A stretch of DNA of 56,658 nt from Saprospiraceae bacterium. GTDB taxonomy: Bacteria; Bacteroidota; Bacteroidia; Chitinophagales; Saprospiraceae. Shown in pieces: positions 20,061-31,526 of this stretch. The stretch is from positions 1-56,658 of the forward strand of contig JANQQI010000083.1 in the NCBI GenBank assembly GCA_028285085.1. The letters run 5' to 3'. A program made the translations under genes and the position numbers. Under the pieces are notes generated by a model, which was not told the DNA's origin, did not search any database, and saw nothing but the letters and a program-made list of their open reading frames with translations. Every line of letters starts with the position of its first letter. Position 1 is the stretch's first letter.

Positions 20061-21353
20061 TTAAGTCGTTGCAAGCGTTTTAATACCTTCGATAAACACA
20101 TCCAAGTCGCTGGTGAGTGTGTAAACATTGGGCGTTACCCGAATACCACTAATTTTGTCGGTATTAATCGCAACAACATGAACATAATACTTCGTACGTA
20201 GCTGCCCCATAATTTGAGATGGCTCTTTCCCTTCAATCGAAAAAAGGCCGATGGCACCACATAGCTCTGGTGACATTGGGCTATGCAGTTGAATACCGGG
20301 GATATCCTTAATTGCATTAATCCAATATTGCCGAAGGTACTGCAAGCGTTCAAACTTTCTGCGGGTACCAATCATTTGATGGAAATCAATGGCTTGTCCG
20401 ATGGCTTGTTCATTGGAAATGGAAAGCGTACCGAGGTGTTCAAATTTAGAGATTTTATCTTCTTCGGGATCCGGCGCGGCAAACATAGGGTAGAGTGGCT
20501 TGATTTTGTCACGCCTAACATACAGCATACCCGTCCCAAAAGGGGCACAAAGCCATTTGTGCAGACTGGTACCCATATAATCACAATCTAAATCGTGCAG
20601 CGACATATCTAGTAGCGCAAAGGAGTGGGCTGCGTCGAGTACGACTTCAATACCTCTACGGTGGGCTTCTTTGATGAGTGCTTTAGCCGGAAAGCGTTGA
20701 CCATTCCAATTATTGATGTGGGTGAGATGCAGAATTTTTGTCTTGTCGGTGAAGGCGGCAACGTATTTATCGATAATCGTTTGTGAATCGTCGATAGGAA
20801 AATCAAATTCCACCCAGCGCAATTTGATGCCGTCCCGATGCTCTCGTTGCTTCCAGGCATTCATCATGTTCGGGTAATCTGCGGTGCAAAGTACGACTTC
20901 GTCGCCCGCTTGTAGTCGTAGACCAAAGATGACGGTTTCCAATGCTTCGCTGGCGTTGCGGTTGATCGCAATTTCTTCGGGATCACAGCCAGCGAGCTTG
21001 GCCAGCTTGCGCCGAACACTGGCTTTACCGTGCTTCAATACACGCCAATGGTAGAAAGTTGGCGATTCGTTGCCGAGCTTATTATAGCGATCGACGGCGT
21101 TTTGTACCACTAATGGTTGAGGACTCACGCCACCGTTGTTAAGATTAATTAGGCTGGAAGACACGCTATAAGCCATCTTGATTTGATGCCAAAAGAGTTC
21201 GTCTCGGGCACTTTCTTTGGGGGATAAATTCTCAATGCGAAGTAATTCGTGGCGCAACGCTTCACCACGAGCGGAGGTCAATAAACCTCCGAAGGCGAGC
21301 TGACCTCCAAGGAGGCCTAACTTACGTAAAAATCGTCTACGGGCAGAAGTCAT
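20061..21353 (-). CDS. Tat-exported class V aminotransferase-fold PLP enzyme (isopenicillin N epimerase-like)
   Basis: A 430-residue protein with a twin-arginine signal (SARRRFLRKLGLLGG, then a hydrophobic run to about residue 28), followed by an aminotransferase class V domain. The PLP lysine is K266 in GTSLHKWLCAPFGTG, and the cofactor-contacting D240 lies in VVLDAAHSF; LNNGGVSPQP near residue 71 and NASEALET near 133 are also typical. Family members include isopenicillin N epimerase, cysteine desulfurases and kynureninase-like enzymes; substrate is unknown. Tat export fits a cofactor enzyme folded before transport. It stands alone on the minus strand. Confidence 0.9.
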   Translation of the reverse strand: MTSARRRFLRKLGLLGGQLAFGGLLTSARGEALRHELLRIENLSPKESARDELFWHQIKMAYSVSSSLINLNNGGVSPQPLVVQNAVDRYNKLGNESPTFYHWRVLKHGKASVRRKLAKLAGCDPEEIAINRNASEALETVIFGLRLQAGDEVVLCTADYPNMMNAWKQREHRDGIKLRWVEFDFPIDDSQTIIDKYVAAFTDKTKILHLTHINNWNGQRFPAKALIKEAHRRGIEVVLDAAHSFALLDMSLHDLDCDYMGTSLHKWLCAPFGTGMLYVRRDKIKPLYPMFAAPDPEEDKISKFEHLGTLSISNEQAIGQAIDFHQMIGTRRKFERLQYLRQYWINAIKDIPGIQLHSPMSPELCGAIGLFSIEGKEPSQIMGQLRTKYYVHVVAINTDKISGIRVTPNVYTLTSDLDVFIEGIKTLATT

Positions 21354-21684: not shown

Positions 21685-22314
21685 CTACGCATTTTGTTCT
21701 TGTGGGACCATCTGATGGTGTTGGGAAAGAATGACCTTTTCTGACATCTCCTGCCAAATTTCCTCCGGAAAGAATCCCTGATTTACGAATTCACCTTCTG
21801 AAGTATGGTCAATAATATTGAAGTTTTCCAGATTACCGGAATTACTCATCAACTGATGGTTTTCGATGATGCCGGCATTGAGTAGGTTCGACAGATTAAG
21901 TAGTGTGTTCTCGTTATCAATCAAGCCTTCGTTGTGCAAATGACCGTTATTCGTCAATAAATGAAGATTATCAATCGTACCGGCATTGACCAGTTCTCCA
22001 TTATTCATAATGGTTCCTTCATTGCGTAAGCTACCCGTATTTTCAATTTGAAGTGTACCTTGATTTTGGAGTAAACATTGACTACCTAGGGTGATAGTAT
22101 CCGCAATTTCTAAAACGCCATCATTTTTAATAGTGAATGCCAACGTCAAGCATTCATTAAGGCGTGGGAAATGTAACCCCTGTGGTTTGGCCGGCAAATA
22201 GGCATGTGTGTGCGAATTTGGAATTCCCGCGGTCCAATTTTGGGGATTAGTCCACTGGCTGCTCACCAGGCCTGTCCATTCAGTATGATGATTCATTCGA
22301 TCTTTTTTAACCAT
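21685..22314 (-). CDS. Asn/Gly-rich beta-solenoid repeat protein, unknown function
   Basis: A 209-residue protein dominated from about residue 65 to 165 by short repeats of the type NxGxLxNxGxIxN (LQNQGTLQIENTGSLRNEGT, ELVNAGTIDNLHLLTNNGHL). Such patterns fold as parallel beta-helices. The N-terminal part (TEWTGLVSSQWTNPQNWTAG) resembles the start of surface or adhesin-type modules. There is no signal peptide, so export is unexplained; a start at the ATG for MNHHTEW, five codons in, is also possible. It could be a surface-displayed or polymer-binding protein. Family not identified. Confidence 0.7.
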   Translation of the reverse strand: MVKKDRMNHHTEWTGLVSSQWTNPQNWTAGIPNSHTHAYLPAKPQGLHFPRLNECLTLAFTIKNDGVLEIADTITLGSQCLLQNQGTLQIENTGSLRNEGTIMNNGELVNAGTIDNLHLLTNNGHLHNEGLIDNENTLLNLSNLLNAGIIENHQLMSNSGNLENFNIIDHTSEGEFVNQGFFPEEIWQEMSEKVILSQHHQMVPQEQNA

Positions 22315-22843: not shown

Positions 22844-24487
22844 ATGTCTTCCCAACCCACTTACACCAATTTTCACGATCCAGTACAATTAGTAGAATTT
22901 TTGACACTTGAAAATCGTCTGCCGATCCATGCCTTAGTGGAGAATACGGATTTAGTAATTGTTCGTTTTGAAGAACGGTTCTCGGCATTATATGGCCGTT
23001 GCTTACACCGCGGAGCCCTTTTGAGTGATGGATATGTGGAGGGGGATAATTTGATTTGTGGGGTTCATAACTGGGATTATCGGATCGATACGGGAGTGAG
23101 TGAATATAATAATGAAGAAGCACTGCATCCTTTTAATGGCGTGTTACACGACGGTCATATCTACGTTGATCGTGCCGAAATTATCGCTTTTGAAAACTTG
23201 CATCCTCAACCCTTTAAAAGGGATGAATACTTGGGTGCTTACGCTGATACGCACCCCGAGAGTACAGAACCTTACACGAACTATATTGCCGATTTGGCAC
23301 GCAATGGCTTGAAAAAACATGGCCACCATGGCCCATCCGCGGCGATGGGTGTAGATCGCAATACACTGCCCGGCTGGGATGACATCCAATTTCTTCCCGC
23401 GCAAATGGCGACTCGTCCTTTGCTTGATAATGAAGCGGTGAAAACGCAAGTCGTAATCGGACCGCGGGCTAAGCGGCCTCTTGTTCTTGAACTACCACTA
23501 TTTGTAACGGACATGTCCTACGGTGCCCTTTCGCCCGAAGCTAAAATCGCCTTAGCAAAAGGGGCGGAGCTTTCTGGTACGGGTATCTGCTCGGGAGAAG
23601 GCGGAATGTTGCCCGATGAGCAAGCTGCGAATAGTCGCTACCTCTACGAACTCGCCTCCGCTAAGTTTGGCTTCAGTTGGGATAAAATGCAAAAAGTACA
23701 AGCCTTCCATTTCAAAGGGGGGCAAGGGGCCAAGACAGGGACCGGAGGCCATCTGCCCGGTGAAAAAGTAAACGAAAAGATTGCCGAAGTACGTGGGCTA
23801 CAGCCTGGCCAGGCTGCCATTAGCCCGGCCACTTTCCCGGATTTGAAAACCGTAGAGGATTTCCGACGGATGGCCGACCGGGTACGGGCGGAAAGTGGTG
23901 GTATTCCCATTGGCTTTAAGCTAGCCGCTAGCCACATTGAAGCGGACATTGACTTTGCGCTGGCGGCGGGAGCGGATTATATCATTTTGGATGGCCGGGG
24001 CGGAGGAACAGGTGCTGCACCGACCATTTTGCGGAATCACATTAATGTTCCGACGATTCCAGCCTTGGCTCGGGCCCGGCAGCATTTGGATAAAGTGGGG
24101 GCTACTGATATTAGCCTCATCATCACTGGGGGCTTGCGCGTCCCCGCTGATTTTGTCAAAGCGTTGATGCTGGGCGCCGATGCGATAGCTGTAGCGAATA
24201 GCGCACTGCAAGCAATTGGCTGCCTGGGTATGCGCGCTTGTAATACAAACAACTGCCCCGTAGGCATTGCCACACAAAAACCGCATTTACGCCAACGTTT
24301 GGAGATTGAGCAATCGGCTCAGCGCTTGCACAACTTTTTCGAAGCTTCAAAGGGGCTGATGCAAGTTGTCGCTCGGGCTTGTGGGCACGATGATTTTAGT
24401 AAATTCAACAAAGATGATCTCAGCACCTTTAATCTCGATATGCACAAACTGACAGGCATTCGCTACGCTGGTGTCAATCCTTTTTAA
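22844..24487 (+). CDS. Rieske domain fused to FMN-binding glutamate-synthase-like enzyme
   Basis: A 547-residue protein from the ATG at 22844, chosen because the Rieske domain begins soon after; an upstream start at 22682 would add 54 residues without motifs. Residues 15-110 are a Rieske [2Fe-2S] domain with ligands C53/H55 (CLHRG) and C72/H75 (CGVHNW). The rest (about 165-520) is the central FMN domain of glutamate synthase, with FKGGQGAKTGTGGHLPGEKV, IILDGRGGGTGAAP, and the 3Fe-4S signature CLGMRACNTNNCPVG. No amidotransferase or GXGXG domain is present, so it cannot use glutamine like classical GltB. It is the first gene of a seven-gene co-directional cluster; the reaction is unknown. Confidence 0.93.
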   Translation: MSSQPTYTNFHDPVQLVEFLTLENRLPIHALVENTDLVIVRFEERFSALYGRCLHRGALLSDGYVEGDNLICGVHNWDYRIDTGVSEYNNEEALHPFNGVLHDGHIYVDRAEIIAFENLHPQPFKRDEYLGAYADTHPESTEPYTNYIADLARNGLKKHGHHGPSAAMGVDRNTLPGWDDIQFLPAQMATRPLLDNEAVKTQVVIGPRAKRPLVLELPLFVTDMSYGALSPEAKIALAKGAELSGTGICSGEGGMLPDEQAANSRYLYELASAKFGFSWDKMQKVQAFHFKGGQGAKTGTGGHLPGEKVNEKIAEVRGLQPGQAAISPATFPDLKTVEDFRRMADRVRAESGGIPIGFKLAASHIEADIDFALAAGADYIILDGRGGGTGAAPTILRNHINVPTIPALARARQHLDKVGATDISLIITGGLRVPADFVKALMLGADAIAVANSALQAIGCLGMRACNTNNCPVGIATQKPHLRQRLEIEQSAQRLHNFFEASKGLMQVVARACGHDDFSKFNKDDLSTFNLDMHKLTGIRYAGVNPF

Positions 24488-24501
24488 AACGCACTAATCT
24501 T

Positions 24502-24888
24502 ATGAAAGACTGGTTTTTTCCTATCACCTTTCTGCCGAGTATTGGCTTTTTTATTATGGCTACGGCTAATTTATCGAATGCGCTGAGTGGGGAGATTGCC
24601 CGCTTGATTGAGGTGGACAATGAGAATGACAAGGCTACGATTCGACGCAAAATTCTACAATTGAGTTTGCTCAGTAAAGCACTTGTTGGTTTGTACATCA
24701 GTGCGGCGGCTTGTGCGTTGGCTGGGCTCATTAGCGGACTAACTGCCACCGTGATGATTCCAGATGTTGTTTTAACGGTGTTAATGTGTGGAAGCATCTT
24801 AGGAATTATTTACGCGCTGGCATTATTGATTCTTTTTGCGATCCGGGCGGTTTCGATAAAGAAGGAACAATTTCAAAATCATTTATAA
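24502..24888 (+). CDS. Small membrane protein, DUF2721-like
   Basis: A 128-residue protein with three hydrophobic helices (about 5-28, 58-85, 90-118). Between the first and second lies a charged stretch with RRKILQLSLL, the arrangement of the DUF2721 family. Function of that family is unknown. It lies 14 nt after the Rieske-glutamate-synthase gene and 21 nt before the Rieske-ThDP gene, so it is embedded in the operon. It may be a membrane partner through which the Rieske enzymes exchange electrons (inference). Confidence 0.8.
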   Translation: MKDWFFPITFLPSIGFFIMATANLSNALSGEIARLIEVDNENDKATIRRKILQLSLLSKALVGLYISAAACALAGLISGLTATVMIPDVVLTVLMCGSILGIIYALALLILFAIRAVSIKKEQFQNHL

Positions 24889-24909
24889 ACCACTTAACAG
24901 ACATCACTT

Positions 24910-26847
24910 TTGGAAAACTATAAATGGCATAAAGTACTGGACAATCCTGCGAGCCTACCCGAAGGTCGCGTCCAATCCGTCACGGCAGGTCATCGCACCT
25001 TTTGTCTAACCCATCACGAAGGAAAATTTGGTTGTTTGGATAATAAGTGTCCACATCAAGGTGGCCCTTTAGGTGAAGGATCGATTGAAAATGGTGTTTT
25101 ACGCTGTCCCTGGCACGGTTGGGATTATGATCCTTTGACGGGGAAGGCACCGGGGTTTGATGATGGAGTAGACACCTTTCCCGTGGAAATTCGCGAAGAT
25201 GGTATCTACATCGGCATTCCTGTCGAAAAGCCACACCCGCGAACCGTATCGGATTTGATGGTAGAAACGATGGTGAACTGGGGGGTAAATACGGTTTTCG
25301 GCATGGTGGGGCACAGTAATCTGGGCTTTGCTGATGCGATGCGCCGGATGGAAGAAAAAGGAAAGCTACAATATATTGGCATTCGGCATGAAGGTGCTGC
25401 GGCTTTTGCAGCTTCGGCCTACGGTAAGTTAACCGGCCGCCCCGCGGCCTGCTTTGCCATCGCCGGCCCCGGATCAACCAACATGTTTACCGGCTTGTGG
25501 GATGCTAAAGTGGATCGTGCACCAATTCTGGCCCTAACCGGGCAAGTTGCTACTCAGGTTGTGGGAACCGGCAATTTCCAGGAAGTTGACTTGGTACGTG
25601 CATTTTCAACTGTCGCAGAATTCAATCATCGGGTCCTGACCACGTCGAAGCACGCTGAGTTAATGAGCTTGGCTGTCAAGCATGCTTTACTCAAGCGCGA
25701 TGTTTCTCATCTGACCTTCCCGGATGAAATCCAAACCCAAGCCATTGATGCTGATTTGCCGGCGCAAACACCCGAAGGGCGGATCACGCCCATGCAAATT
25801 AGCCCGCCACAGGATACATTTACCAAAGCTTTAGAAATGCTACGCGCCGCGCAGCGTCCGGTGATCATCGTAGGGCACGGCGCTCGCTTCAATATGCCAG
25901 CTATCATTGAATTGGCAGAACGCCTGCGCTGTCCAGTTTTGACGACCTTCAAAGGCAAAGGTCTGGTTCCCGATCATCATCCGCTGGGTTGTGGTGTGCT
26001 CGGACGCAGTGGAACGCCAATCGCCAGTTGGTTTATGAACGAAGCGGACTTACTCTGTGTATTTGGTGCTTCTTTTTCCAATCATACCGGGATTACACCA
26101 AAAAAGCCAACGATACAGGTTGACTTTGATCCTTTGGCGTTGAGTAAGTTTCACAAAATCGATGCAGCAGTCTGGGGTGAAATTAGCGTAACCGTCCAAT
26201 TGTTTTTAGAGCAAATGGATACGCTTCAAGCAATTGACCAGACCGAGGAAATTGCCAAGCGCTGGGCCATTTGGCGAGAAGAAAAACAGCGCCGGTTACA
26301 AGATGATCGTCAGCACGGACTGAGCTCTATCGCGGTTTTTGAAGCTATGAATAAGACCGTGCCCAAGAATGCCATCATCACCGTCGATGTTGGAAATAAC
26401 GCCTATTCCTTTGGTCGTTATTTCGAATGTTCGGAACAATCCATTTTGATGTCAGGCTATCTGGGGTCGATTGGCTTTGCTTTTCCGGCGGCTATGGGCG
26501 CCTGGGCGGCGGCTCCGGAGCGACCGATTGTGGCCGTAGCTGGTGATGGCGGCTTTGTGCAGTACCTCGGAGAAATCACAACGGCAGTAAAATATAAGAT
26601 GCCGATCAAATTAATTTTGCTGAATAATTCTGAGCTGGGGAAAATATCGAAAGAGCAACGGGCCGGGGAGTTTTCCGTTTGGCAAACCAAGCTGCATAAT
26701 CCCAATTTTGCCGAATTCGCGAATAATTGTTCGGCCTTAGGAATCAGGGTTGAACAAGTAGGTGATTTGGAAGCAGCTATGCAGCAAGCCTTTGCGCATG
26801 ATGGGCCGGCAATTGTGGAAATCATTACTGATGTGAGTTTGATTTAA
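24910..26847 (+). CDS. Rieske domain fused to thiamine-diphosphate enzyme (pyruvate oxidase / acetolactate synthase-like)
   Basis: A 645-residue protein read from a TTG at 24910; no suitable ATG lies nearby, and the Rieske domain starts within the first residues. Residues 5-105 form a Rieske domain with C47/H49 (CPHQGG) and C66/H69 (CPWHGWDY). Residues 115-640 are a complete ThDP enzyme: the Pyr domain has catalytic Glu in RHEGAAAFAASAYGKLTG and AGPGSTNMFTGL, then come a central domain and a PP domain with the GDGG...NN cofactor motif (AVAGDGGFVQYLGEI to LLNNSEL). Relatives are pyruvate oxidase, acetolactate synthase and glyoxylate carboligase. Fusion to a Rieske centre suggests electrons leave through an iron-sulfur cluster. 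Substrate unknown. Confidence 0.94.
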   Translation: MENYKWHKVLDNPASLPEGRVQSVTAGHRTFCLTHHEGKFGCLDNKCPHQGGPLGEGSIENGVLRCPWHGWDYDPLTGKAPGFDDGVDTFPVEIREDGIYIGIPVEKPHPRTVSDLMVETMVNWGVNTVFGMVGHSNLGFADAMRRMEEKGKLQYIGIRHEGAAAFAASAYGKLTGRPAACFAIAGPGSTNMFTGLWDAKVDRAPILALTGQVATQVVGTGNFQEVDLVRAFSTVAEFNHRVLTTSKHAELMSLAVKHALLKRDVSHLTFPDEIQTQAIDADLPAQTPEGRITPMQISPPQDTFTKALEMLRAAQRPVIIVGHGARFNMPAIIELAERLRCPVLTTFKGKGLVPDHHPLGCGVLGRSGTPIASWFMNEADLLCVFGASFSNHTGITPKKPTIQVDFDPLALSKFHKIDAAVWGEISVTVQLFLEQMDTLQAIDQTEEIAKRWAIWREEKQRRLQDDRQHGLSSIAVFEAMNKTVPKNAIITVDVGNNAYSFGRYFECSEQSILMSGYLGSIGFAFPAAMGAWAAAPERPIVAVAGDGGFVQYLGEITTAVKYKMPIKLILLNNSELGKISKEQRAGEFSVWQTKLHNPNFAEFANNCSALGIRVEQVGDLEAAMQQAFAHDGPAIVEIITDVSLI

Positions 26848-26858
26848 AATCAATTTTT

Positions 26859-27350
26859 ATGATGAAAGAACTATTGGATGTCCTTCCCCAAATTGGGCGG
26901 ATCGAATGGATTGGGTTGCGCCCGGCGCGCAAAGCTCCTCTCGAATCGGTGGAAACAGTACAAGTAAATACCGAGTTGGGATTAGTAGGAGATCATTATC
27001 AGGGTAAGAACGGTAAGCGACAGGTGACTTTGATTCAGACGGAGCATTTGGAAGGGGTAGCGTCGATGTTGGGACTGGAAAAAGTAGCGCCAACGGATGT
27101 TCGCCGAAATATCGTGGTGCGAGGAATCAATTTACTGGCGCTGAAGGATCGTCGCTTTCGAATTGGTACTGAACTTGTCCTAGAGACGACGGGGCTATGT
27201 CATCCCTGCTCGCGCATGGAACAAAATCTGGGGCCCGGAGGTTACAACGCCATGCGCGGCCACGGTGGCATCACCGCCCGGGTCATCAGCGGTGGAACGA
27301 TGCAACTGGGCGATGAAGTACAACTAATCCCGGATACACCTTCGGCTTAA
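26859..27350 (+). CDS. MOSC domain protein
   Basis: A 163-residue stand-alone MOSC domain (LGLVGDHYQGKNGKRQVTLI, APTDVRRNIVVRGINLLAL), with the conserved Cys in TTGLCHPCSRME and GHGGITARVISGGTMQLGD at the end. MOSC domains carry or transfer sulfur, classically to molybdenum cofactor, but stand-alone bacterial members such as YiiM act in resistance to thiol- or N-oxide-type compounds. It begins 11 nt after the Rieske-ThDP gene, which makes co-transcription very likely. No molybdoenzyme is encoded nearby, so a MoCo-independent role is favoured (inference). Confidence 0.93.
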   Translation: MMKELLDVLPQIGRIEWIGLRPARKAPLESVETVQVNTELGLVGDHYQGKNGKRQVTLIQTEHLEGVASMLGLEKVAPTDVRRNIVVRGINLLALKDRRFRIGTELVLETTGLCHPCSRMEQNLGPGGYNAMRGHGGITARVISGGTMQLGDEVQLIPDTPSA

Positions 27351-27424
27351 GTTGGATTTTAAACATTCTGTACGGCTGCGCTGTATGCATAATGAAGCCT
27401 TTTTTTAAGGAAAAAATAATTCAC

Positions 27425-27811
27425 ATGAGTTTTTTAGATCGTTTTCGACAAAGTCAGCAAGAACCAATTCACAAAGATTGGAAATCATTACGCTCTGCGG
27501 CTGATCTTGATGCAGCCATTGCAGAATCCTATCAATATCCTGTAGCCCTATTCAAGCACAGCACCAGTTGTGGGATCAGCTCCATGGCGAAGTGGAATTT
27601 GGAGAAAGATTGGGATTTTGGAACGGAGGAAGTCAAATTCTATTATCTCGATTTGTTGGCGTTCCGTCCGATATCCAATGCCATTGCGGATCAGTTAAAC
27701 GTCATCCATCAGTCTCCGCAGGTGATCTTGCTGCGCAACGGGGAAGTGATTTATCACACTTCGCATCATGCCATCGGTGTTGCGCCGCTTCGCGCCGCCC
27801 TCAAAAGTTGA
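27425..27811 (+). CDS. ytxJ: YtxJ-type bacillithiol-linked redox protein
   Basis: A 128-residue thioredoxin-fold protein (MSFLDRFRQS start at 27425; an ATG at 27392 would add 11 residues). The active-site loop is FKHSTSCGISSMAKW with a single Cys (C49), matching YtxJ. Proteins of this family are linked to bacillithiol and are thought to act as bacilliredoxin-like de-bacillithiolating proteins. The YtxJ features VIHQSPQVILLRNGEVIYH and ASHHAI-like tail are also visible. It sits in the Rieske/MOSC/OsmC cluster and supports bacillithiol as the low-molecular-weight thiol of this organism. Confidence 0.9.
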   Translation: MSFLDRFRQSQQEPIHKDWKSLRSAADLDAAIAESYQYPVALFKHSTSCGISSMAKWNLEKDWDFGTEEVKFYYLDLLAFRPISNAIADQLNVIHQSPQVILLRNGEVIYHTSHHAIGVAPLRAALKS

Positions 27812-27851
27812 CCCATCTACATCTACACTTTTTGACCAAAACCAACTTACT

Positions 27852-29066
27852 ATGCGTTCACAAAAAGTGGAGTTCACGAACAAGAACGGCTATAAGCTAT
27901 CGGCTCGTTTAGAACTCCCTGCGACCAGTCATCCGCATACGTTTGCTCTATTTGCCCATGTCTTTACCGGAAATAAAAATCTTACGGCCGTTCGACATAT
28001 TAGCCGAGCGTTGACTGTAGAAGGAATCGGCGTACTGCGCTTTGACTTTACCGGGCTAGGGGAGAGCGAAGGTGATTTTACGGATACGACCTTTACTTCC
28101 AATGTAGACGATTTGATCGCTGCGGCTCAATTTCTGGAAACACATTACGAGGCGCCGGCGATTATGGTGGGACACTCCCTCGGAGGGGCGGCAGCTATTT
28201 TTGCGGCTGCTCAGCTGGATTCTGTTCGGGCCATCGCTACGGTGGGCACGCCTTCCGAGCCCGAACACGTGACGCATCTTTTGTCGGATAAATTAGAAGA
28301 TATCGAACGGAAAGGTGTGGCTCAGGTCAATATCGCCGGACGGTCTTTTATTATCAAAAAGGCCTTTTTGGATGATATCCGTTCAAAAAATATGTTTGGA
28401 CTGCTACGTGATTCGCGCAAGCCGATTTTGGTGATGCACTCTCCACAGGATCAGATTGTAGAAATTGAGAATGCTGCGCATATTTATCAGGCTGCTTTTC
28501 ATCCCAAGAGCTTTGTCACGCTCGACGGTGCGGATCATATGCTTACGAACAAAAAAGATGCGGCCTACACTGGACGGGTAATTGCTTCCTGGGCAAGTCG
28601 ATATTTGAATTTACCCCAAAAACGTGGATTTAATACCGACCGTCAAGTTGCTGCTCGTCTGGGAGAAGTTGGATTCACTACAGAAATTATTGCCGGCCGG
28701 CACGGTTTGCTGGCCGACGAAGGTGAAGAAGTGGGCGGTGATGACTTTGGCCCCTCACCTTATCAATATTTATCAACTGCACTGAGTGCTTGCACGGTGA
28801 TGACGATGCAGATGTATGCCCGTCGAAAAGGGTGGTCACTACGCGAGGTACGGGTACATGTTGATCACGGGAAGCGTTATGTCGATGATTGTAAAAATTG
28901 TGATAAACCAACCAGCAAAGTGGATCACTTTGATCGCATCATAGAAATTGAAGGTGATTTAGACGAGACGCAAATCAATCGCTTGCTCGAAATAGCGGAT
29001 CGCTGTCCGGTGCATCGCACCTTGCACAATGAAGTGCGCATTAATACTGAATATCGTCCCGGATGA
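27852..29066 (+). CDS. Bifunctional alpha/beta hydrolase - OsmC family protein
   Basis: A 404-residue fusion, started at the ATG at 27852 (MRSQKVEFTNKNGYKLSARL), 28 codons into the longest ORF. The N-terminal alpha/beta-hydrolase half (about 5-255) carries the nucleophile S109 in GHSLGGA and the acid/His region MHSPQDQIV and DGADHML. The C-terminal half (about 265-400) is OsmC-like, with two redox Cys in LSACTVMTMQMYARRKG and RCPVHRTLHNEV. OsmC/Ohr proteins reduce organic hydroperoxides with thiols. Its stop overlaps the nitrilase start by 4 bp. A paired esterase-peroxidase acting on an oxidised acyl compound fits the cluster (inference). Confidence 0.92.
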   Translation: MRSQKVEFTNKNGYKLSARLELPATSHPHTFALFAHVFTGNKNLTAVRHISRALTVEGIGVLRFDFTGLGESEGDFTDTTFTSNVDDLIAAAQFLETHYEAPAIMVGHSLGGAAAIFAAAQLDSVRAIATVGTPSEPEHVTHLLSDKLEDIERKGVAQVNIAGRSFIIKKAFLDDIRSKNMFGLLRDSRKPILVMHSPQDQIVEIENAAHIYQAAFHPKSFVTLDGADHMLTNKKDAAYTGRVIASWASRYLNLPQKRGFNTDRQVAARLGEVGFTTEIIAGRHGLLADEGEEVGGDDFGPSPYQYLSTALSACTVMTMQMYARRKGWSLREVRVHVDHGKRYVDDCKNCDKPTSKVDHFDRIIEIEGDLDETQINRLLEIADRCPVHRTLHNEVRINTEYRPG

Positions 29067-30001
29067 AACAGGATTTAAAAGTTGCCATTGTGCAGGCCGG
29101 TCCAGCCTACCTGGATTTAGAGCGCTGCCTCGCGAAGATGACCGAGCTCGTCCATACGGCAGCTAGCTCCGGAGCGGAAATGATCGTGTTCGGTGAAACT
29201 TGGCTCTCTGGCTACCCGGCCTGGCTGGATCACTGCCCAGACTACGCCCGCTGGGATCACGAACCGACCAAGACCGTCTTCGCTCGCATGTATCAAAACA
29301 GCATCACGGTACCTGGTCCGGCTACCGAGCACATTGCTGCTCTGGCGCGTCAGCATCGGATGGTCATTTGTACGGGCATCAACGAAGTGGTGCATCGAGG
29401 AGCGGGTAATGGCACCATTTATAACGCTTTGCTCATTTTTGATGCTGATGGTAGTTTGCGCAATCACCACCGCAAACTGATGCCAACCTATACGGAAAAG
29501 CTGCTTTACGGACTCGGTGATGGGCACGGCTTGCAAGCCGTTGATACAGTTGCTGGCAGGCTTGGTAGTCTGATTTGCTGGGAGCACTGGATGCCTTTAA
29601 CCCGCCAAACTTTACACCGTAGCGGGGAAGAAATTCACTTGGCGCTCTGGCCGCAGGTACATGAGATGTTGCAAGTGGCCAGTCGGCATTATGCTTTCGA
29701 GGGCCGCTGCTATGTGATTGCGGTTGGGCAATTGATGCGGGCCGCGGATTTTCCGGCTGAGCTGGCCCTGCCCGAGCACTTGTCTGCAGATCCTCAACAA
29801 TTAGTGCTGCACGGCGGCAGCTGCATTTATGGTCCAAATGGTGCCGAATTATTGAGTCCACAGTGGGATGGGGATGAATTATTATACTACACTTTTTCGG
29901 ATACCGATCGCATTCTCAAAGAACGTATGACGCTCGACACTTCCGGGCACTATCAGCGCCCGGATATCTTCCAGTTTGATTGGAATAAGGATCGAAGATA
30001 A
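29063..30001 (+). CDS. Nitrilase-type carbon-nitrogen hydrolase
   Basis: A 312-residue enzyme of the carbon-nitrogen hydrolase superfamily with the Glu-Lys-Cys triad E45 (FGETWLSGYP), K138 (HRKLMPTYTEK) and C172 (ICWEHWMPL). The CWExxMPL sequence and the PTYTEKLLYGLGDG loop are those of true nitrilases (R-CN to acid plus NH3) rather than amidases. It is translationally coupled to the hydrolase-OsmC gene (ATGA overlap) and is the last gene of the seven-gene cluster. Release of ammonia next to a glutamate-synthase-like enzyme hints at nitrogen assimilation or nitrile/cyanide-adduct detoxification. Substrate unknown. Confidence 0.93.
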   Translation: MKQDLKVAIVQAGPAYLDLERCLAKMTELVHTAASSGAEMIVFGETWLSGYPAWLDHCPDYARWDHEPTKTVFARMYQNSITVPGPATEHIAALARQHRMVICTGINEVVHRGAGNGTIYNALLIFDADGSLRNHHRKLMPTYTEKLLYGLGDGHGLQAVDTVAGRLGSLICWEHWMPLTRQTLHRSGEEIHLALWPQVHEMLQVASRHYAFEGRCYVIAVGQLMRAADFPAELALPEHLSADPQQLVLHGGSCIYGPNGAELLSPQWDGDELLYYTFSDTDRILKERMTLDTSGHYQRPDIFQFDWNKDRR

Positions 30002-30067
30002 ATGTCGTAACTTGCGGCTTTAAATTTTTAAAACCCATTTCAAAAGACGATAATTTCCCCCTACAAT

Positions 30068-31246
30068 ATGGACTACTATCAGGAATCACTACACTTACAC
30101 CGTCGCTTAAAAGGTAAGATTCGCGTTCAGGCGAAAATGGATGTGCGCTCCAAAGAAGACCTATCTTTGGTCTACTCACCGGGCGTGGCCGAGCCTTGCC
30201 GTGAAATTCACAAAGACGAAGAAAAGGTATGGGATTATACGATTAAAAGTAACACTGTAGCGATTGTAAGTGATGGTTCAGCGGTGTTAGGACTAGGCAA
30301 TATCGGGGCCAAAGCAGCTATTCCAGTGATGGAAGGTAAAGCAATGCTGTTCAAACGTTTTGCGGGTATTGATGCTTTTCCCATCTGTTTGGATACCCAG
30401 GATACCGATGAAATTGTAGAAACCGTGAAGCGTATCGCGCCGGTCTTTGGCGGCGTCAACTTGGAAGATATTGCTGCGCCGCGTAGTTTTGAAATTGAGA
30501 CGCGGCTACAAGACTTGGGGATTCCCGTCTTTCACGATGATCAGCACGGTACCGCGATCGTAACTTTAGCGGCTCTGCTCAACGCGGCCAAAGTTGTAAA
30601 GAAAAACCTCTTCCAACTCAAAGTGGTCATCAATGGAGCTGGAGCTGCTGGGATTGCCATCGCTCGCTTATTACGCTGCGTGGATCACGATTCGAATAGT
30701 GCTTGTATTGCTGTGAAGCAAGTGGTGGTGTGCGATAGTAAAGGCATTATCCACTCCGGACGCACCGATCTGAATCCTGTTAAAGAGGAGTTATTAAAAT
30801 ATTCTAACCCTGGTGGCCAGGCAGGCACTTTGCAAGACGCTTTGGTCGATGCCGATGTATTTATTGGTGTGAGCAAGGGCGATTTGTTGAAGGCAGATGA
30901 TATTCGTACGATGGCTAAGGACCCCATTATTTTTGCGATGGCCAATCCGACTCCGGAGATTATGCCCGATGAGGCCTTGCGTGGTGGTGCGGCCATCGTG
31001 GGTACAGGCCGTAGCGACCTCCCTAACCAGGTGAATAACGTACTAGGTTTTCCTGGCATTTTTCGTGGCGCCTTAGATGCCCGCGCGCGGCGAATTACGG
31101 CAGACATGAAACTGGCCGCTGCTTTTGCCATCGCCGACTGTGTACCCGACCCCAAGCCCGAGATGGTAATCCCCGCGACGCTCAATGAACAAGTCGCCTG
31201 GCGAGTCGCGGAAGCCGTCAAAAAAGCAGCTTTGACTCAAGTTTAA
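30068..31246 (+). CDS. Malic enzyme (NAD(P)-dependent, short form)
   Basis: A 392-residue enzyme that oxidatively decarboxylates malate to pyruvate. It shows the malic N-terminal domain (LVYSPGVAEPCREI, TNTVAIVSDGSAVLGLGNIG-like block, FPICLDTQDTDEIV), the metal-binding LEDIAAPRSFEIE and the HDDQHGTAIV motif. The NAD(P)-binding domain has VINGAGAAGIAIARLL and FAMANPTPEIMPD. It lacks the C-terminal phosphotransacetylase domain of long MaeB forms. Cofactor preference cannot be told by eye. It starts 66 nt after the nitrilase gene and may be a separate unit followed by a Rof-like gene 31 nt later. Confidence 0.95.
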   Translation: MDYYQESLHLHRRLKGKIRVQAKMDVRSKEDLSLVYSPGVAEPCREIHKDEEKVWDYTIKSNTVAIVSDGSAVLGLGNIGAKAAIPVMEGKAMLFKRFAGIDAFPICLDTQDTDEIVETVKRIAPVFGGVNLEDIAAPRSFEIETRLQDLGIPVFHDDQHGTAIVTLAALLNAAKVVKKNLFQLKVVINGAGAAGIAIARLLRCVDHDSNSACIAVKQVVVCDSKGIIHSGRTDLNPVKEELLKYSNPGGQAGTLQDALVDADVFIGVSKGDLLKADDIRTMAKDPIIFAMANPTPEIMPDEALRGGAAIVGTGRSDLPNQVNNVLGFPGIFRGALDARARRITADMKLAAAFAIADCVPDPKPEMVIPATLNEQVAWRVAEAVKKAALTQV

Positions 31247-31277: not shown

Positions 31278-31526
31278 ATGGAAAAGTATCAACCGATAGC
31301 CTGCCAGTTTTACGATGTCTTGGAGTTGCATGCTTCACGGCGAGAAAAGTCTACTATTGCCTTTTTCGAAAATGGCAAATCTGTAAAAACTGTAGATGCG
31401 ATTATCGAAGATATCTTCACCCGCGAAAAGGCTGAGTATCTAAAACTGAGTGATGGTACCGAAGTTCGTTTGGACCAGATCATTAGTTTGAATGATACTC
31501 AATTCTACGGCTCCTGTGGATTTTAG
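31278..31526 (+). CDS. Rof-like Rho-binding antiterminator
   Basis: An 82-residue protein that begins YQPIACQFYDVLELHAS, close to the YQPInCddYDxLE start of the Rof/YaeO family, and continues with a five-strand small-barrel pattern ending in LKLSDGTEVRLDQIISL. Rof binds and inhibits the transcription terminator Rho in enterobacteria. The assignment rests on the N-terminal signature and length. It lies 31 nt after malic enzyme and 20 nt before a glycosyltransferase gene, on the same strand. Confidence 0.75.
   Translation: MEKYQPIACQFYDVLELHASRREKSTIAFFENGKSVKTVDAIIEDIFTREKAEYLKLSDGTEVRLDQIISLNDTQFYGSCGF

Follow-up and report, generated by a model that had tools for sequence, protein, structure and literature searches.

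Two Rieske-fusion enzymes at a Saprospiraceae locus: a candidate redox module within a longer run of genes

Seven closely spaced genes, here designated A to G, occupy part of a 56,658-nucleotide stretch of DNA from a Saprospiraceae bacterium (contig JANQQI010000083.1 of assembly GCA_028285085.1; the whole stretch is termed the window below). Two of them encode enzymes of different catalytic families, each joined to a Rieske iron-sulfur domain: protein A combines it with the flavin mononucleotide (FMN) domain of glutamate synthase, and protein C with a thiamine diphosphate (ThDP) enzyme. Does the entire run act as one redox pathway, as the initial annotation of the locus supposed, or does only part of it belong together, and what might the two Rieske centres be doing? 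Comparison with related loci points to an answer in two steps. The core of the locus is best read, from its sequence relationships, as an A-(B)-C module. More tentatively, C would oxidise a 2-oxo acid and pass the electrons through its fused Rieske domain to an FMN-containing partner. Of the pathway envisaged initially, the conserved pair of Rieske fusions and, as the best reading, the passage of electrons from ThDP to an iron-sulfur centre are retained; the grouping of all seven genes is not.

Conservation of the A-C neighbourhood

A scan of named genomes returned at least 548 confirmed relatives of C, and the best 80 of these, together with 14 more (4 from a scan of 149 genomes of the same order and 10 from a scan of 395 genomes of the same phylum), supplied 94 C loci besides that of the window. 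The loci, given L numbers here, come from 93 genomes (G numbers), two of them sharing genome G526, and the sample leans to Bacteroidota. All counts of neighbours around C are lower bounds, since contig ends cut many loci. Genes were called by a simple open reading frame (ORF) script, which missed the C gene of L135; this gene was added for the counts and not for the clustering at 80% identity.

In 53 of the 94 loci, C is accompanied by gene A. When C is collapsed at 80% identity (93 loci, L135 left out), 44 clusters remain, of which 20 have A, 15 a DUF5996 protein, 13 a membrane protein combining Ferric_reduct and Rieske domains, 7 B and 2 a malic enzyme. With two haloarchaeal loci included, A is on the same strand as C in 55 of 55 cases and upstream of it in 51. 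B is present in 29 of the 94 loci, and in 21 of them it directly precedes C in the same orientation; B itself has no Pfam match, its relatives were recovered by tblastn (for example in L050, at 40% identity and E 1e-26), and the relative in L111 matches DUF2721. The neighbourhood comparison proposed with the initial annotation thus reveals a conserved block comprising A, B and C. Beyond Bacteroidota, linkage of the pair recurs in a member of the Pyrinomonadaceae, in a Parabeggiatoa, in a planctomycete and on two of four haloarchaeal plasmids. It thus spans five phyla, of which one is archaeal and others include Acidobacteriota, Pseudomonadota and Planctomycetota; the Pyrinomonadaceae and planctomycete loci also carry the Ferric_reduct-Rieske gene. 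Individual inspection of the other loci outside Bacteroidota (short contigs in some cases) showed no A linked to C in Shewanella, an acidobacterium, two cyanobacteria, a gemmatimonad, two loci labelled Chlorobiota, two haloarchaea and a plasmid of M. abscessus. Divergence among linked A sequences tracks that among their C sequences (r 0.77 across 56 pairs, a value that none of 2000 permutations reached), a correlation in which species history is included.

The two genes also keep company at the level of whole genomes. Among the 395 phylum genomes, C occurs in 11 (the window's included, at E 1e-100), full-length A in 48 and both in 10 (Fisher p 2.9e-9, uncorrected for relatedness), and ten further genomes have a match only to the synthase part of A. 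The Ferric_reduct-Rieske protein occurs in 12, of which 11 have A (Fisher p 3.1e-10, likewise uncorrected); a thirteenth match, in G231, was dropped as being the Rieske domain of C itself. In four genomes (G190, G267, G279 and G327) A and the Ferric_reduct-Rieske gene adjoin without C. These distributions suggest that A is the shared component, joined by C, by the membrane Rieske protein or by both. The wider set of 94 loci speaks against this: 41 have no linked A, and in 21 of those the genome is without A altogether. In the remaining 20 a copy is present at another site, in three cases as the synthase part only and in one cut by a contig end.

By sequence, C is a discrete family: in the 149 order genomes it is found in five, the window's included, with relatives 64-68% identical and the next match at 31%. 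In its tree the window protein groups with sequences from Haliscomenobacteraceae and Saprospiraceae (Bacteroidota), the M. abscessus sequence sits on a very long branch, and the haloarchaeal sequences form one clade inside a bacterial group; the tree is unrooted, and this nesting is consistent with horizontal transfer. Five plasmid records hold a C relative at 56-64% identity, four of them haloarchaeal and one from M. abscessus, and the other 142 plasmid matches are, judging by the 20 matches listed, ordinary ThDP enzymes, with no more than 36% identity in those 20. The haloarchaeal records label C a 'thiamine pyrophosphate-binding protein' and A a 'glutamate synthase-related protein'. A scan of viral contigs found no C relative, and viral carriage was rejected. 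As a separate observation, the C gene at G231:C2:445183-447120 has one in-frame TGA, and a near relative in G444 has none.

The two fusion enzymes and their possible partners

In Pfam terms, C consists of a Rieske domain (57.5 bits) followed in order by the N, M and C domains of TPP_enzyme. Both A and C pass the Pfam cut-off for Rieske and have the ligand pattern C-x-H ... C-x2-H, in agreement with the initial description of two Rieske-fusion enzymes with Cys-His pairs; the pattern is kept in all 94 C relatives and in the five plasmid relatives, and the ligands are invariant in an alignment of 14 C sequences. The nearest solved protein, by sequence as by predicted fold (predicted local distance difference test score, pLDDT, 80), is PoxB of Escherichia coli (3eya), and the best matches suggest a ThDP enzyme of the pyruvate-oxidase (PoxB) type. 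It is this kinship, together with a malic enzyme nearby in three lineages including that of the window, that leads us to take C for a putative 2-oxo-acid oxidase, most likely acting on pyruvate. The alignment with PoxB ends at PoxB residue 527 of 572, with five residues of C remaining; the C-terminal tail of PoxB is presumably the membrane-binding part used to reach quinone. Acetolactate synthases and carboligases are also among the better matches of C, and a Phe of PoxB in the loop that follows the second ThDP motif is replaced in C by a Lys (K578), which is invariant. We take this loop to be flavin-adjacent (LpPOX F479), and the flavin site of C may therefore differ. Both features would suit an enzyme running a carboligase or acetolactate-type reaction, with the Rieske domain as a structural element or redox-sensing switch, a reading that we consider quite unlikely given that the top matches in sequence and structure are pyruvate oxidases, that the Rieske ligands are invariant and that the domain resembles Rieske ferredoxins.

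Protein A scores 40.6 bits for Rieske over residues 27-84 and 299.7 bits for Glu_synthase over residues 190-504; only Rieske families match before residue 190, with no Pfam match to an amidotransferase domain. Its motif C460-x5-C466-x4-C471, of the GltB 3Fe-4S type, is invariant in 17 aligned sequences, one of them haloarchaeal. Equally invariant in these 17 are E252, Q294, K297 and R317, the alignment partners of E903, Q969, K972 and R992 of ferredoxin-dependent glutamate synthase (Fd-GOGAT), to which we ascribe a role in binding 2-oxoglutarate. At the position of Fd-GOGAT Q978, A has a His (H303), and its substrate may therefore differ from that of Fd-GOGAT. Of 54 A-family proteins, 52 showed the paired Cys-His Rieske motif by pattern, that of the window among them. 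The two exceptions are the relative from L134, in which the motif is displaced inwards because the start was predicted too far upstream, and a relative adjoining C at L044:4569-6083, which has CDGSH iron-sulfur motifs instead of Rieske.

A direct handle on the function of A comes from loci in which another flavoprotein stands in its slot. A protein of the FMN_red family occurs in 10 of the 94 C loci, and all 10 are without A both in the locus and in the genome. At L112:7923-8681 it fills the slot that A occupies at L091:7083-8696, and likewise relative to L084 and L087, the same seven genes preceding the slot in all four loci and largely the same genes following it; L080 shows the downstream side only. 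A genome survey covered 78 of the 94 C genomes, that of the window included (left out were 15 that all have A beside C, plus L097), and found FMN_red in 13 of 21 genomes lacking A versus 3 of the 57 that possess it (p 3.6e-7, uncorrected for relatedness); the three relatives in A-bearing genomes are 48-55% identical, two of them broken by stops, and eight A-lacking genomes have neither protein. Because FMN_red replaces A, the role of A beside C would appear to be one that an FMN flavoprotein can fill, which makes glutamate synthesis less plausible as the essential function of A, and a part as electron partner more so. The only strong solved relative of this FMN_red protein is 5mji/5mld, a 'BRAMP domain protein'; no paper in the open-licence literature searched uses the term 'BRAMP domain', and inferring a function from FMN_red was given up, the nearest structure providing no functional lead.

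Within the proposed module, whose cofactors, substrates, direction of electron flow and complex formation we infer, C would decarboxylate a 2-oxo acid on ThDP, most likely pyruvate and probably with flavin adenine dinucleotide (FAD) as in PoxB. Its N-terminal Rieske domain would carry the electrons out, replacing the membrane tail of PoxB, and deliver them to an FMN partner, which may be A in most of the sampled genomes and the FMN_red flavoprotein in others. The Rieske domain of A would in turn feed its [3Fe-4S]/FMN domain, where 2-oxoglutarate or a related 2-oxo acid might be reductively aminated with free ammonia. In some genomes the Ferric_reduct-Rieske protein could couple the module to the membrane, and malic enzyme, where present, could supply pyruvate. 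Matches to malic enzyme near C reach E 1e-162 to 1e-177 in L057, L062, L064, L119 and L122 (L058 is weak, at E 1e-23) and fall in two lineages besides that of the window.

Other genes recur around C. After A the most frequent neighbour is DUF5996 (44 of the 94 loci), followed by an Na+/H+ antiporter (NhaP, 37), the Ferric_reduct-Rieske membrane protein (27), a Crp-like protein (18), YHS (16), DUF427 (13), a K+ channel (11), malic enzyme (6), YjeF (5) and an EgtD-like protein (5). On one haloarchaeal plasmid, less than 8 kb takes in C and A together with a K+ channel and an annotated sodium:proton antiporter; on the M. abscessus plasmid, C is accompanied by a relative of FMN_red and by a gene annotated as an antiporter, A being absent. 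The recurrence of the antiporter, K+ channel and Crp-like regulator points to a setting of stress or energy limitation. On an alternative reading, A and C might be parallel enzymes of a stress or ion-homeostasis island, each served by ordinary donors through its own Rieske domain. The counts of NhaP, Crp-like, YHS and K+ channel genes and both plasmids agree with such an island, as does the replacement of A by FMN_red, a family that usually uses reduced nicotinamide adenine dinucleotide (phosphate), NAD(P)H. We nevertheless regard it as somewhat unlikely: A is found in more C loci than any of these four neighbours, and a general island would have no need of Rieske domains on two catalytic families together with a third Rieske protein.

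Several observations weigh against the module as proposed here. At E 1e-100, A is missing altogether from the genomes behind 21 of the 94 C loci, so that C does not depend on it; some of these absences may be gaps, metagenome-assembled genomes being possibly incomplete. Conversely, 38 of the 48 genomes with full-length A lack C. The substitutions K578 in C and H303 in A, together with the capacity of FMN_red to stand in for A, which speaks against glutamate synthesis as the role of A here, count on the same side. The genome from which the window comes (7.47 Mb in 140 contigs) already codes a full-length GltB frame of 1515 aa, as well as a third Glu_synthase gene. This genome also has no Ferric_reduct-Rieske protein at E 1e-20, no FMN_red, no DUF5996 and, in a search that had no positive control, no counterpart of the protein that accompanies Ferric_reduct-Rieske elsewhere, which leaves it fewer candidate electron routes than other genomes. 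The Pfam profile for DUF5996 is too insensitive for this purpose, since the relatives in L111 and L058 escape it as well; the search was therefore redone with an alignment (A3), which found none in this genome and was positive in three of three control genomes. No second C-like gene was detected there at E 1e-60.

Two of the recurrent neighbours deserve description in their own right. The partner of the Ferric_reduct-Rieske gene, exemplified by L111:13604-14401, is present in 27 of 27 Ferric_reduct-Rieske loci and has, by eye, a predicted membrane anchor and a conserved-looking Cys-rich stretch; it has no Pfam, NCBIfam or PDB match. DUF5996 (L111:8823-9569) gives a confident predicted model (pLDDT 94.8) without a PDB fold match at E 0.001, and an attempt to derive a function from it was set aside for that reason; the term is absent from papers in the open-licence literature searched, and the module, if real, would supply its first partners. 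A rhodanese-repeat protein and an EgtD-like histidine-specific methyltransferase occur together near C at L095:3375-5691 and in L076, L089 and L110, and in L126 the EgtD-like protein is found without the rhodanese.

Genes D to G and the remainder of the window

The layout of the locus (Table 1) reproduces exactly the coordinates and every gap of the seven tight, co-directional genes described initially: the spacings from A to G are 14, 21, 11, 74 and 40 nt, followed by a 4-nt overlap. The domain families assigned to D, E, F and G (MOSC, YtxJ, hydrolase-OsmC and nitrilase) were likewise recovered. A malic-enzyme gene, H, which directly follows G on the same strand, was absent from the initial gene set.

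Table 1. Genes of the locus and their coordinates in the window
Gene	Coordinates	Strand	Description
A	22844-24487	+	Intact ORF; Rieske + Glu_synthase by Pfam
B	24502-24888	+	Intact ORF; small membrane protein, clusters with DUF2721-like proteins
C	24910-26847	+	Intact ORF, TTG start; Rieske + TPP_enzyme N, M and C by Pfam
D	26859-27350	+	Intact ORF; MOSC-domain protein by Pfam
E	27425-27811	+	Intact ORF; YtxJ/BrxC, monothiol bacilliredoxin-like
F	27852-29066	+	Intact ORF; alpha/beta-hydrolase + OsmC fusion
G	29063-30001	+	Intact ORF; CN_hydrolase, nitrilase
H	30068-31246	+	Malic enzyme, separated from G by 66 nt

That all seven genes act together, with ammonia from the nitrilase feeding A and with YtxJ and OsmC guarding thiols, would accord with their tight co-directional spacing in this genome. 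At E 1e-20, though, none of the 94 C loci has D, F or G and a single one (L073) has E, and beyond these only three weak CN_hydrolase matches were seen, the best at E 7.6e-13. In genomes of the same family, homologues of F and G lie off the A-C contig: in G129, A and C share one contig, and the hydrolase-OsmC protein and the nearest nitrilase (37% identity) are on two others. F occurs in 27 of the 149 order genomes, the window's included, and nitrilases at least 50% identical to G in three other genomes of the 149; neither these three G-relative loci (50-59% identity) nor five F-relative loci contain another gene of the D-G set at E 1e-20. A seven-gene unit, which we judge very improbable, was rejected on these counts, and the supply of ammonia to A and the part given to thiol repair find no comparative support. 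The homologues of D to G are scattered in just the manner that the initial annotation had said would tell against it. D to G look, from their distribution, like a lineage-specific addition to the A-C module. As to their own families, E reaches the bacillithiol YtxJ family (TIGR04019, 121.1 bits vs a cut-off of 77.25); G, a CN_hydrolase with nitrilases and cyanide dihydratases among its relatives, falls far below the cut-off of the Nit6803 family (TIGR04048, 196.7 bits vs 502.6). The Nit1C nitrilase cluster is defined by radical-SAM, acetyltransferase and AIRS-like partners, unlike the neighbours of G, since A to F all belong to other families.

Prediction of promoters and terminators gave 25 promoter sites vs 13.0 in shuffles and 18 terminator sites vs 10.6, and neither scan settles where transcripts end; the interval from G to the malic enzyme contains a weak terminator-like site (30004-30018). 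An anti-phage system was also considered and rejected, none of nine proteins (seven from the window and two neighbours from L111) matching a PADLOC model. Upstream on the minus strand are a class-V aminotransferase (20061-21353) with, by eye, a twin-arginine-like N-terminus and a 209-aa protein (21685-22314) that by eye consists of degenerate short repeats and has no Pfam match. Directly after the malic enzyme, on the plus strand, an 82-aa protein (31278-31526) scores 27.0 bits for ROF vs a cut-off of 27.6, a sub-threshold match to a family of modulators of Rho-dependent termination.

Comparison with known systems

Within the open-licence literature, outside which most subscription papers lie, our searches brought up no publication that deals with a gene pair of the Rieske-ThDP or Rieske-glutamate-synthase kind, which suggests that neither the fusion of Rieske to a ThDP enzyme nor its conserved association with a Rieske-Glu_synthase protein has been described in that literature. 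Each single domain is already known, as are CDGSH-Glu_synthase fusions and ferric-reductase-Rieske fusions.

Protein A resembles the glutamate synthases GltB and Fd-GOGAT in its Glu_synthase domain, 3Fe-4S Cys motif and several aligned residues of the presumed active site, and departs from them in its fused Rieske domain and in having no amidotransferase domain match; against the GltB equivalog it scores 146.8 bits, with a cut-off of 1047. The fusion proteins already in print that join a CDGSH iron-sulfur domain to Glu_synthase (PMC5859297) share its plan of a cluster domain attached to the synthase domain. They differ in the cluster domain, which in A is Rieske, and the parts of that paper available to us describe no link to a ThDP enzyme. 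For the membrane protein of the C loci, ferric-reductase-domain proteins with Rieske are likewise in print: model M4, in the portion of PMC3591440 consulted, combines the same two domains and is also listed with FMN, and the A and C partners described here are not mentioned in that portion; the window genome has no such protein.

Protein C lies below the NCBIfam equivalog cut-offs of its class, with 407.7 bits against 742 for PRK08611 and 322.4 against 792 for the E. coli-type PRK09124. Kin of this class include the pyruvate:quinone oxidoreductase PQO of C. glutamicum (9ev3-9ev6). With PoxB (3eya), its top structural match, C shares three TPP_enzyme domains in the same order and 27% identity over 540 columns; it differs in possessing an N-terminal Rieske domain and in lacking the C-terminal tail. 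A more ambitious picture, which we regard as unlikely as it stands, is of a mobile Rieske circuit crossing domains of life, in which a tail-less PoxB-type C would send electrons from 2-oxo-acid decarboxylation, by way of its own and its partners' Rieske centres, to interchangeable FMN enzymes (Rieske-GltB or FMN_red) and a heme-b/Rieske membrane protein, and so would couple the oxidation of carbon to reductive chemistry without NAD(P)H or ferredoxin. Should the more restricted A-(B)-C reading prove correct, a pyruvate-oxidase-type enzyme would here be wired to soluble reductive chemistry through Rieske centres.

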